Source of the DNA: Aliarcobacter lanthieri
Lineage (GTDB): Bacteria; Campylobacterota; Campylobacteria; Campylobacterales; Arcobacteraceae
Length of the DNA: 64,000 bases
NCBI RefSeq assembly: GCF_013201625.1
Contig: NZ_CP053839.1
Coordinates: 1,302,001 to 1,366,000 of the forward strand
Reading direction: 5' to 3'
The translations under genes and the position numbers were made by a program. The number at the start of each line of letters is the position of its first letter. Position 1 is the stretch's first letter. The notes below the pieces were generated by a model that did not search any database, was not told the DNA's origin, and was given only the letters and a program-made list of their open reading frames with translations. Positions 52,727 to 55,940 of the stretch are shown piece by piece.

Positions 52727-52791
52727 TATTACCATTTTAAAATCATTAGTTATCTATCTTTCAAGATTAAACTTCTATTGGATACCATTCC

Positions 52792-52806
52792 ATTAACATA
52801 TAATTA
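52792..52806. repeat. Left 15-bp direct repeat, candidate attL
   Basis: ATTAACATATAATTA, identical to 55926-55940. It lies between the adhesin leader and the element. A competing longer but imperfect repeat starts at 52921. Confidence 0.5.
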
Positions 52807-52920
52807 GAAAAGCAAATGATTAAAACATATTAAACAAACTAACAAAAGCCTTTAATAGCACTCTTACAGACATTCTTATTTTATTTAAAATTTTAAATAT
52901 ATGGTTTAATATTCTATTCT

Positions 52921-52957
52921 TTTGTACAAATTTAACACACTTTGTACAGTGTGTACA
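52921..52957. repeat. TGTACA box cluster
   Basis: TGTACA occurs at 52923, 52943 and 52952; TTTGTACA recurs with a 20-bp period, and CACACT/AGTGTG flank the second box as an inverted repeat. The first 20 bases match 18 of 20 at 55871-55890, across the integrase stop codon. Candidate integrase or Rep binding sites, or an alternative attachment core. Confidence 0.5.
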
Positions 52958-53155
52958 TACAATTATTTATATTACATATTGACAATACTAATAAATTTAA
53001 TTATAATTATTAAATTAGTCGTATAAGAAATATTTATATAAATCGATTAAGTCTTAATATATGTCGCAACAAATTTTTGTGTAGGTCGATAATTCATACA
53101 AACAAATCAAAAGTTATTTTTAAAGGCTCAATTTTTTATTTATAAAAAATGAGCA

Positions 53156-53205
53156 AACAAACGGTTTTTTAGTTATTTACACAATAATATTTTAATCCGT
53201 TTGTT
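53156..53205. repeat. 9-bp inverted repeat before rep
   Basis: AACAAACGG (53156-53164) and CCGTTTGTT (53197-53205) are exact complements with a 32-nt spacer. It lies 115 nt upstream of the rep start codon. May be part of an origin or an operator. Confidence 0.45.
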
Positions 53206-53223
53206 ACAGAGTACAGAAGTAAA

Positions 53224-53275
53224 AAGGCTTTTTTGACTTAATCGTGTAGGTTACGGAGCGATTGTCAAAAGCCCT
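53224..53275. repeat. Large imperfect hairpin before rep, candidate replication origin
   Basis: The arms 53224-53244 and 53259-53275 pair through AAGG, GGC/GCC, TTTTGAC/GTCAAAA and AATCG/CGATT around a 14-nt loop TGTAGGTTACGGAG. It lies 45 nt before the rep start, the place where rolling-circle elements often hold their nick or priming site. A related GTGTAGGTCGAT occurs at 53079. Confidence 0.4.
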
Positions 53276-53320
53276 TGATTACTTTTAAAAAAGTTACTAC
53301 ATAAATTAAAAGGAATAAAA

Positions 53321-54382
53321 ATGTATGGATTATCACAAGATGATTTTACTAGTATAGATAGTAAACTCATAAAACAAGAAAAATATATAAAAAATATGTT
53401 TTTTAATTTTGGAATTGAAAATGAACAAAAGTCTATTTTAGATTTTACATATTCAGCAAATTTAAATCCTAATAAATATTTTGCAGAAATGAATAATAGA
53501 ATAAATAGTATTTTCAAATATGCAAATGAAAAAAAGTTAAAACCAGTTTTTTGTACTATTACTGCACCTAGTAAATATCATCAAACTGATAAAAATAGAA
53601 AACTCATATTATCTCCAAATCAAACTGCAAAAGACTTAACTCAAACTTTTAATAAATTTACTAATATACAAGTTTTTCAAAAACTAAGAAAAGAGTTAGG
53701 AGAAAGTCTAACTTATTTTAGAGTAAATGAGCCACATAAGAGTGGAGTTCCACATACTCATATAATGCTATTTTTACCTAATCACTATATTTTAGAAGTA
53801 AAACAAAAATTTTATGAATATTTTACAAATAAAGTAAGATGGGGTAATAATGTAAAAAGCTTAGATTTTAGATATACATTTTACAATGTTAAAGGGGCTA
53901 TATCCTATTTAATGAAATATATAACTAAAACTTTTAAGAATGAGAATAACTCAAAGAATAAAGCTTGGTATTGGTATATAAAAAATAATGTAAGGCGATT
54001 TTCTTGTTCAAGAACTTTAGCCCCTTTAATGGTTTATAGAAAAATTAGATATTTTTTTAAAGATAAATATCAAGATGACTATTTAGAAATTTCAAAACTA
54101 TTAAAAGAAAAGAATATTCTTAGGTTATTTGATGATACAACTTATAATTATATGTTTTATAATAAATCAACTGGTGAAATAGAAGAAATAAATATATGGC
54201 AGAAAAATACAGATTTAATATTAAGGAGTAGAATAAAAAAAGATAAAATAATATCTTTAAAATATTCTAAAAAAGAATTTAAAACAAATTTAATAGCATT
54301 TGTATCAGATTTTGAAAAATATATTTATTCAAAAAAAATGAATAAATTCATTTTAATGCCAGTTATTCCATCTTTACTTTAA
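53321..54382 (+). CDS. Two-tyrosine HUH replication endonuclease (phiX174/P2 gpA type)
   Basis: 353 residues. FCTITAPSKYH at 78-88 is motif 1, VPHTHIMLFLP with His145 and His147 is the metal-binding HUH motif, and YLMKYITK with Tyr196 and Tyr200 is the two-tyrosine catalytic motif (compare YVAKYVNK in phiX174 gpA). Such proteins nick and religate one strand to start rolling-circle replication. AAAGGAATAAAA precedes the ATG. The gene ends at a TAA, after which the same frame stays open for 57 codons, so the native C-terminus is probably lost. It is the first of three genes. Confidence 0.85.
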   Translation: MYGLSQDDFTSIDSKLIKQEKYIKNMFFNFGIENEQKSILDFTYSANLNPNKYFAEMNNRINSIFKYANEKKLKPVFCTITAPSKYHQTDKNRKLILSPNQTAKDLTQTFNKFTNIQVFQKLRKELGESLTYFRVNEPHKSGVPHTHIMLFLPNHYILEVKQKFYEYFTNKVRWGNNVKSLDFRYTFYNVKGAISYLMKYITKTFKNENNSKNKAWYWYIKNNVRRFSCSRTLAPLMVYRKIRYFFKDKYQDDYLEISKLLKEKNILRLFDDTTYNYMFYNKSTGEIEEINIWQKNTDLILRSRIKKDKIISLKYSKKEFKTNLIAFVSDFEKYIYSKKMNKFILMPVIPSLL

Positions 54383-54556
54383 GATTATCAACTAAATAAT
54401 TATTTCAATATATTAAACAAAAATATAGATAATATAAATTTAATTCATTTTGGAATTACAAAAAATGAAATGATAAAAAGAGGTTTTTTACAAGAAGATT
54501 ATATTAATCCTGCTTTATATACTCCAATTTTAGGAGAATATAATGAGTTTAGTTGA
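54383..54556 (+). pseudogene. Detached C-terminal remnant of the rep gene
   Basis: Directly after the rep TAA the same frame reads 57 codons (starting DYQLNNYFNILNKN, ending PILGEYNEFS) to a TGA at 54554. A single change of CAA to TAA would explain the stop. Without internal start plus ribosome site it is not likely to be translated alone. It overlaps the next gene by 14 nt and holds its GGAG ribosome site, normal for a coupled pair. Confidence 0.5.
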
Positions 54557-54839
54557 TATTAGTACAATAAATTTAATTCCAAAAGTTCTTGAAGAAATGC
54601 AAAATCTTAAAAAAGATATACACGAATTAAAACAACATTTAAAACCTAAATATGATTTGAGTAGAAGAAATGGAGTTATGAAATATTTAAATATTTCAGA
54701 TAGTACAATATCTAAATATATAAAAGAAGGTACTTTTAAAGAAGGTTATCACTATTATAGAGAAATAAAGGGAAGAAAATCTATAATAAAATATGTAAGC
54801 GGTGCTATTGAAGAGTTCAAAAAGGACAAAACAAAATGA
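54543..54839 (+). CDS. Small coiled-coil and helix-turn-helix protein (excisionase-like)
   Basis: 98 residues. Residues 14-38 (LEEMQNLKKDIHELKQHLK) form a coiled coil, and from about 43 RRNGVMKYLNISDSTISKYI is a helix-turn-helix of the MerR/AlpA type common in excisionases and replication regulators, followed by a wing (HYYREIKGRKSIIKY). GGAG precedes the ATG. It overlaps the integrase start by 4 nt. Likely an excisionase or a repressor of rep. Confidence 0.72.
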   Translation: MSLVDISTINLIPKVLEEMQNLKKDIHELKQHLKPKYDLSRRNGVMKYLNISDSTISKYIKEGTFKEGYHYYREIKGRKSIIKYVSGAIEEFKKDKTK

Positions 54840-55885
54840 AACTTTACAATAGAAACGGGATTTTATACATCTATGTTAATGGTGTTCGTAAAAGTAGCGG
54901 TTTGAAAGATACAAAAGAAAATCGTAAACTACTAGAAAACCATTATAAAAATGATGAGTTCTATGAAAAATTTAATGTTAAAAATAAAGGTAAGACTATA
55001 ATTGAATTTTGTGAAGAAGTCTTGATTGAGAAAGAAAAAAGACTTCAACCAACGACAATAAATACCTACTATGGTTTATTTTCAAGTAGGATTATACCTT
55101 TTTTTGATAAAAAATATCCACATGAGATAAGCCCTTTTATGTTAAAAGAATGGTATAAAACTTTTAAAGATAGAAGTACATTAAATACTTGTGTAGCTGG
55201 AATTTTAAAACCAGCTTTTGAAAATGCCATTATAGATGGATATATAAAAACAAGCCCTTTTATAGTTAGCTTCCCTACTTTAAAAAGTGATTATGAAATA
55301 AAACCTTTTAATTTACAAGAAATAAAACTAATTTTAGATAATGCTGATGGTTGGTTTAAAAACTTTTTAGGTATTGCATTTTTTACTGGTGCAAGAACTG
55401 GTGAAATTCTAGCTTTAGAGTGGAAAGATATAAATTTTGAAGAGAATACTATATCTATAACGAAAACTAGAACTATGGGATTAACGAAAACTCCTAAAAC
55501 TAGGAGTAGTTACAGAACAATAGATATGCTTATACAATGCGAAACTTTTTTAAAAGAACAAAGAAAGATAACTGGACTAAGTGAAAGTTTGTTTGTTTTA
55601 AAAGGTTATAAAAACAAAAAGTTATATAATAGTTCCTCACTTATATTATATTGGAAAAAAATATTAGAAAAATGTAAGTTAGAATATAGAAGCATTTATC
55701 AAACCAGGCATAGTTTTGCTAGTAATATGCTATCTAACAAAGAAGATATATTTTGGGTTTCTCAGATGCTAGGTCATAAAAGTATAAATATAACAAGTGA
55801 AAAATATTCTAAATATATAAAAAGTAATAGAGATAAAAAAACTACTTTTTTAGACAATGAATATTTATATTTTGTACAAAATTGA
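54836..55885 (+). CDS. Tyrosine-type site-specific recombinase/integrase
   Basis: 349 residues. The catalytic set is readable: Arg187 in FTGARTGEIL, Lys221 in TPKTRSSYR, Arg291 in YQTRHSFAS (the usual first His is Tyr288, an accepted variant), His314 in MLGHKSINIT and the nucleophile Tyr324 in SEKYSKY. Residues 50-150 form the SAM-like core-binding domain. It would cut and join the element ends. The ATG overlaps the upstream stop, so the three genes are likely one transcript. Confidence 0.93.
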   Translation: MKLYNRNGILYIYVNGVRKSSGLKDTKENRKLLENHYKNDEFYEKFNVKNKGKTIIEFCEEVLIEKEKRLQPTTINTYYGLFSSRIIPFFDKKYPHEISPFMLKEWYKTFKDRSTLNTCVAGILKPAFENAIIDGYIKTSPFIVSFPTLKSDYEIKPFNLQEIKLILDNADGWFKNFLGIAFFTGARTGEILALEWKDINFEENTISITKTRTMGLTKTPKTRSSYRTIDMLIQCETFLKEQRKITGLSESLFVLKGYKNKKLYNSSSLILYWKKILEKCKLEYRSIYQTRHSFASNMLSNKEDIFWVSQMLGHKSINITSEKYSKYIKSNRDKKTTFLDNEYLYFVQN

Positions 55886-55890
55886 CACAC
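55871..55890. repeat. Right copy of an imperfect 20-bp repeat at the integrase 3' end
   Basis: TTTGTACAAAATTGACACAC matches 52921-52940 at 18 of 20 positions in the same orientation. It contains the integrase stop codon, as attachment sites often do. It competes with the 15-bp repeat as the crossover site. Confidence 0.45.
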
Positions 55891-55925
55891 CAATATCTTT
55901 AAACACCAACATATAATGATAGTCT

Positions 55926-55940
55926 ATTAACATATAATTA
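55926..55940. repeat. Right 15-bp direct repeat, candidate attR
   Basis: ATTAACATATAATTA, identical to 52792-52806, 41 nt after the integrase stop. A partial copy, AACATATAAT, lies 21 bp upstream at 55908. Confidence 0.5.

Follow-up and report, generated by a model that had tools for sequence, protein, structure and literature searches.

The window analysed here, a stretch of 64,000 nucleotides from Aliarcobacter lanthieri, carries an integrated element of about 3.13 kb, inserted between ccsA and the gene of a large adhesin. This Aliarcobacter element has the order att - origin - rep - xis - int - att and contains only the genes rep, xis and int, plus a leader of 0.5 kb, with the following features:

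52789-52806, no strand: left attachment repeat (attL core), TCCATTAACATATAATTA, one of a pair of 18-nt direct repeats that share 94% identity.
52920-52940, no strand: left inner repeat, a possible arm-type site of the integrase, 21 nt, 90% identical to 55870-55890.
53226-53273, plus strand: hairpin upstream of rep, candidate part of a rolling-circle origin, in a 90-nt stretch with a predicted folding energy of -18.6 kcal/mol.
53273-53301, plus strand: conserved element of 29 nt, CCTTGATTACTTTTAAAAAAGTTACTACA, candidate double-strand origin or nick region.
53321-54382, plus strand: rep, a truncated rolling-circle initiator of the GPA/HUH type (Pfam Phage_GPA, 2.7e-20; PHROG 91, nicking at origin, 1.6e-23).
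54383-54556, plus strand: untranslated remainder of rep, encoding a conserved two-helix tail (core 54383-54505) and ending with TGA at 54554-54556.
54520-54530, no strand: mosaic junction between the rep side and the xis-int side; the DNA match to prophage L031 ends at 54519 and that to element L045 starts at 54531.
54543-54839, plus strand: xis-like HTH protein of 98 aa, with a weak match to HTH_17 (8.5e-4) that is below the Pfam cut-off.
54836-55885, plus strand: intact tyrosine integrase of 349 aa (Phage_integrase, 2.1e-20; PHROG 1, 2.1e-54).
55870-55890, no strand: right inner repeat, a possible arm-type site of the integrase, pairing with 52920-52940.
55923-55940, no strand: right attachment repeat (attR core), TCTATTAACATATAATTA, a direct repeat.

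An integrative mobile element is indicated by the integrase, by the flanking direct repeats and by an empty site in the nearest species (G030), which the joined flanks of the window match at 82% over 562 nt. Full-length relatives of the integrase are 70-76% identical to it, and L045, a related element, has a sequence similar to the left inner repeat close to its end; judging from their sequence, the inner repeats are possible arm-type integrase sites. No recognisable virion genes (Zot, secretin, coat) were found in the element, and no Zot gene was detected in the 19 kb of the window that were examined or, over the cut-off, in the whole genome. With a rep and an origin common to phage and with virion genes absent, the element has the make-up of a satellite of filamentous phages; no helper phage was seen in this genome.

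The attR core contains TTAACATATAATTAA, a 15-bp pattern also present upstream of ccsA in 28 of the 30 genus loci, the window's included; there TTAAY-N5-RTTAA lies at most 120 nt upstream of the gene, mostly near -60, and is sometimes repeated in tandem with 11-bp steps. The same pattern occurs within 260 nt after int in nine of the 15 elements checked. From the sequences of the window (52789-52806 and 55923-55940), L069, L045, L098, L100-L102, L104 and L106, TTAAY-N5-RTTAA seems to be the target of this integrase family. Across the genus its strict form, TTAAC-N5-GTTAA, is rare (75 occurrences versus 421 of a reversed control in 31 genomes; 0 versus 8 in this genome) and may be the operator of a regulator; the NssR site given in the available excerpt of PMC1274295, TTAAC-N4-GTTAA, is one base shorter.

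The hairpin and CCTTGATTACTTTTAAAAAAGTTACTACA in the leader form a candidate rolling-circle origin, with a putative nicking function deduced from the sequence. Upstream of rep, 17-29 nt of CCTTGATTACTTTTAAAAAAGTTACTACA are found exactly in 11 of 14 other loci and a near copy is present in a twelfth (L046), while L040 and L041 do not have it; in several homologous loci, hairpins of differing sequence were seen by eye to precede the conserved element.

The Rep protein matches the Phage_GPA family profile with 73.1 bits against a curated cut-off of 31.4, the catalytic domain corresponding to residues 7-204. Residues H145, H147, Y196, K199 and Y200 are invariant in 11 Rep sequences, and we take H145 and H147 to be the HUH motif, and the tyrosines the catalytic Tyr region, of the window Rep. 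Initiators of the GPA type nick the origin and start rolling-circle replication. When the model of a homologue was compared by Foldseek with the PDB, the top matches were HUH nucleases (AAV Rep) with an E-value of 5.9e-3, none reaching 1e-3. The window Rep shares its catalytic domain with the PF05840/PHROG 91 initiators of P2, PM2 and HP1 (by tblastn it is similar to P12 of PM2, at 29.6%, and to the P2-like Rep A of Mannheimia, at 26.1%), but is truncated and much shorter than these gpA-type proteins. No second such Rep and no second tail was found in the genome.

Translation of rep gives 353 aa closed by TAA at 54380-54382, past which the frame stays open for 57 codons (54383-54553) up to the TGA at 54554-54556. 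The extended frame overlaps the xis-like ORF (ATG at 54543) by 14 nt, and AGGAG at 54532-54536, the ribosome site of the xis-like gene, lies within the extension; all these points of the initial annotation were confirmed on the sequence. By itself, the openness over 57 codons is only modestly unusual. When the 171-nt extension was base-shuffled, a fraction of 0.0012 of the versions stayed open, and at least 57 open codons follow the stop of 3 of the 47 window ORFs of at least 150 aa and of 39 out of 500 ORFs in 48 sequences (the window and 47 loci), many of these continuations probably being due to a neighbouring gene that shares the frame.

A Rep protein search in 104 genomes of the family gave matches in 31, and the 12 full-length homologues that were aligned all continue through the stop column of the alignment. 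Alignment-based scans of genome contigs and viral contigs (12 and 5 loci, respectively) added six homologues, five of which also continue; the Rep of the sixth, L181, ends at residue 337, with its continuation carried in other frames, an apparent frameshift. Single-sequence scans of the genome and viral contigs confirmed no relative, and phage and plasmid records held distant matches only (215 and 24 records, all below 60% identity). The alignment of 18 homologues excludes L011/L046 (contig end at residue 176), the relic of G031 and the distant Reps L015-L030. It is homology that places the extension beyond chance, because 17 of the 18 homologues align across the stop and a tail profile of 41 positions, built without the window, matches the extension with an E-value of 2.2e-21 (6.0e-21 in a further run). 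Accordingly, the claim that Rep is cut by one in-frame stop holds, and none of the close homologues ends at residue 353, L181 breaking earlier. A change from Gln (CAA) had been supposed at this position; the column instead holds Lys in eight homologues, Ser in five, Asn in three and Glu in one, with Gln in none of the 17 and no stop, the near-identical pairs L004/L178 and L165/L177 being entered separately in this count.

The two sides of the element match different relatives. The window matches prophage L031, which carries Zot (3.8e-10) and Secretin (4.2e-29) by Pfam, over 53265-54519, and the small element L045 over 54531-55888 and 52815-52938, from which we read 54520-54530 as the point where an inovirus-type origin and rep were joined to the xis-int module of another small element. 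This joining gave the extended frame the end that it has now, together with its overlap with xis. Two earlier suggestions are consequently not supported: an ancestral Rep of about 411 residues, since homologues measure 388-470 aa and the end of the extension was created at the junction, and a 14-nt overlap reflecting native gene coupling, since the last codons and the overlap derive from the same junction.

Arcobacteraceae inovirus-type prophages such as L031 (Zot, secretin, rep, xis, int) have the rep family, the origin element and the rep-xis-int order in common with the window, but they carry Zot and secretin, whereas the window element lacks both and has no coat gene either. L045 (genome G005), a minimal rep-xis-int element with xis and int 72% and 76% identical to those of the window, has left-arm sequence and the kind of target site in common with it, but possesses a short tail-less Rep (341 aa) of another group and, upstream, a regulator-like gene and an 88-aa gene, which are missing from the window element. 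The compact 3.6-kb L045 element (L045:6628-9963, plus strand) has identical 19-nt ends and the order repressor-like gene, 88-aa unknown gene, short GPA-type Rep, xis, int. Another locus, L046 (genome G024), matches the left half of the window element (52792-53847) up to a contig end within rep, and may be a second element of the same build. According to the available excerpt of PMC6668415, five HUH clusters contain inovirus Reps, and exchange of these with plasmids is frequent; the mosaic in the window fits such integrated rolling-circle plasmids and inoviruses with exchangeable HUH Reps; among the systems covered by that excerpt no nonsense-truncated Rep is described, whereas the window Rep is truncated. 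In an inovirus survey, pI is given as the sole near-universal marker gene (excerpt of PMC6813254).

In the AF2 model of an intact homologue, L167 (mean pLDDT 68.5, pTM 0.55, 12 sequences), a HUH nickase region (1-262) and a low-confidence linker (291-343) are followed by two helices (354-365 and 374-386) in blocks with pLDDT of 74-83. The stop column of the window corresponds to residue 353 of L167 (A3 numbering) and, on this predicted structure, the stop removes just the two-helix tail module and spares the nickase domain. The tail lies outside the Pfam Phage_GPA model, and no match to it was found among Pfam and PHROG families. We rejected the idea that the window tail is translated as a gene of its own, as inspection by eye revealed no in-frame ATG, GTG or TTG upstream of the ATG in the KNEM motif, which is already beyond the midpoint of the tail.

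Across 398 genomes of the order, the tail profile identified 44 places in 38 genomes (E-value of at most 1e-3), 42 of them without interruption, the exceptions being the window and G031. Forty places lie in frames of at least 386 aa, 39 of these in frames of 386-563 aa and nearly all at the C-terminal end; the fortieth, in G342, is a weak match within a frame of 849 aa. The remaining four places are in the window, where the frame has 57 aa, in G031, where it contains one TAA, in G099 (a stand-alone 121-aa frame) and in G351 (a weak match in a 50-aa frame). In G031 a second broken Rep was observed (L043:6350-6988, plus strand), with residues 79-327 missing and an in-frame TAA within the tail. 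In the G099 element (L103:6292-6642, minus strand) the tail ends a 116-aa ORF located directly upstream of xis, at the position of rep; no Rep was recognised in the ORF listing of this element, and Pfam and PHROG gave nothing useful for the stand-alone tail protein.

The tail and Zot co-occur in 24 of the 28 tailed Rep frames, which include the duplicates L165/L177 and L039/L201 and the near-identical L033/L178. A tailed-type Rep without Zot is found in L043, L186, L187 and L193, and the tail is unbroken in the last three, which led us to reject the view that it marks virion-producing elements alone. No tail was called in 15 Rep frames, the window included, and 13 of them belong to loci in which Zot was not detected, among them L046 and L189, which are cut by a contig end; the Rep of L190 was called tail-less, yet a divergent tail is visible by eye.

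We consider it likely that a recent nonsense mutation truncated the Rep of a mosaic element just before its tail, impairing replication while excision may persist. The chief rival, in our estimate an unlikely one, is that the 353-aa Rep is a working tail-less initiator, tail loss having been tolerated or favoured in an element with no virion genes. The nickase domain of the window Rep is intact, and tail-less short Reps of about 340-350 aa do occur in other small Zot-less elements, for example the 341-aa Rep of L045, whose xis and int are the closest to those of the window; tail loss therefore need not be fatal. Of the 15 tail-less frames, the 13 mentioned above lie in loci without a detected Zot. 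These short Reps, however, form a distant group, with about 36% identity, ending at about window residue 300 and not 353, and the unbroken tail in three of the four Zot-less loci with tailed-type Reps (L043 being the fourth) argues that the tail is still needed where virion genes are absent.

The window tail is undecayed: it retains 11 of 12 conserved columns, and its branch, with a length of 0.272 versus 0.503 for L002, shows no acceleration. A recent stop is consistent with this result, which readthrough or a sequencing error would give as well. In the latter case the gene would really be uninterrupted, with an assembly or sequencing error at 54380-54382, in keeping with a single lesion in an otherwise undamaged frame and tail; against it, the genome is one complete contig, and we regard this as very improbable. 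Still more improbable is a low-level, perhaps regulated, readthrough yielding Reps of both 353 and about 411 aa, to which the in-frame TAA in the tail of the G031 relic might lend weight: the two stops differ in place (the codon before the tail in the window, inside the tail in G031), the G031 Rep in addition lacks residues 79-327, and neither the other 42 tail places nor the 17 homologues at the window's column have a stop, leaving no conserved stop position, so that programmed readthrough appears unlikely from these comparisons. As to the rest of the gene, Tajima relative-rate tests with four outgroups gave a faster N-terminal Rep part than in the sister (for example L004, 49 versus 23 unique changes, chi2 9.4), whereas rates were equal with outgroups L009 (32 versus 33) and L012 (24 versus 24), and relaxed constraint on the whole rep gene is thus only partly supported. 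Since the nearest homologue is only 66-68% identical to the window Rep, the age of the stop cannot be bounded.

In the preferred reading of a recent nonsense truncation, Rep comes from an inovirus-type (filamentous-phage) lineage, and xis and int from another kind of small element. The 353-aa protein may still nick without its tail, which is probably a module for docking or oligomerisation that full replication requires. The element would then be impaired as a replicon, and the proposal that it is replication-defective is plausible, though it may still be excised. The conserved C-terminal tail is lost, but the nickase domain, the origin and the att sites look intact, and so do xis and int. By analogy with Pf phage, which requires UvrD and an initiator with a SIYNK module (available excerpt of PMC4863604), one may guess that the tail docks a helicase. 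In L182 (L182:14150-15484, minus strand), a 445-aa frame with a tail-like C-terminal end (E-value 0.0088) contains an RIYNK motif, which is similar to the SIYNK module found in the initiators of Pf and CTXphi (same excerpt). This protein has no Pfam match at 0.01 and PHROG gave nothing useful; it may represent an initiator of another family that has the tail in common with the GPA-type Reps.

A broader proposal, which we hold to be rather doubtful, is that the tail (LxHYGLxKNEMIKRG) constitutes a portable docking module of two helices, used by rolling-circle initiators of the Campylobacterales, which operates via a host or phage partner common to them and is able to do so in trans. If so, the tail would end GPA-type Reps across the order and perhaps also the initiator of L182, the stand-alone tail of L103 would suit a satellite hijacking the replication of its helper, and the stop in the window would fall exactly between the half of Rep that nicks and the half, now lost, that recruits the partner. 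The finding is mainly one of correct annotation: in an integrated element of mosaic make-up, rep is interrupted at the edge of a domain, and homologues bear out the expected continuation. The truncation has the look of ordinary wear in DNA assembled from two sources. The broken copy points to a tail module that recurs at the ends of Campylobacterales rolling-circle initiators, and once alone, and the broken rep offers a natural test of the requirement of this tail for replication.
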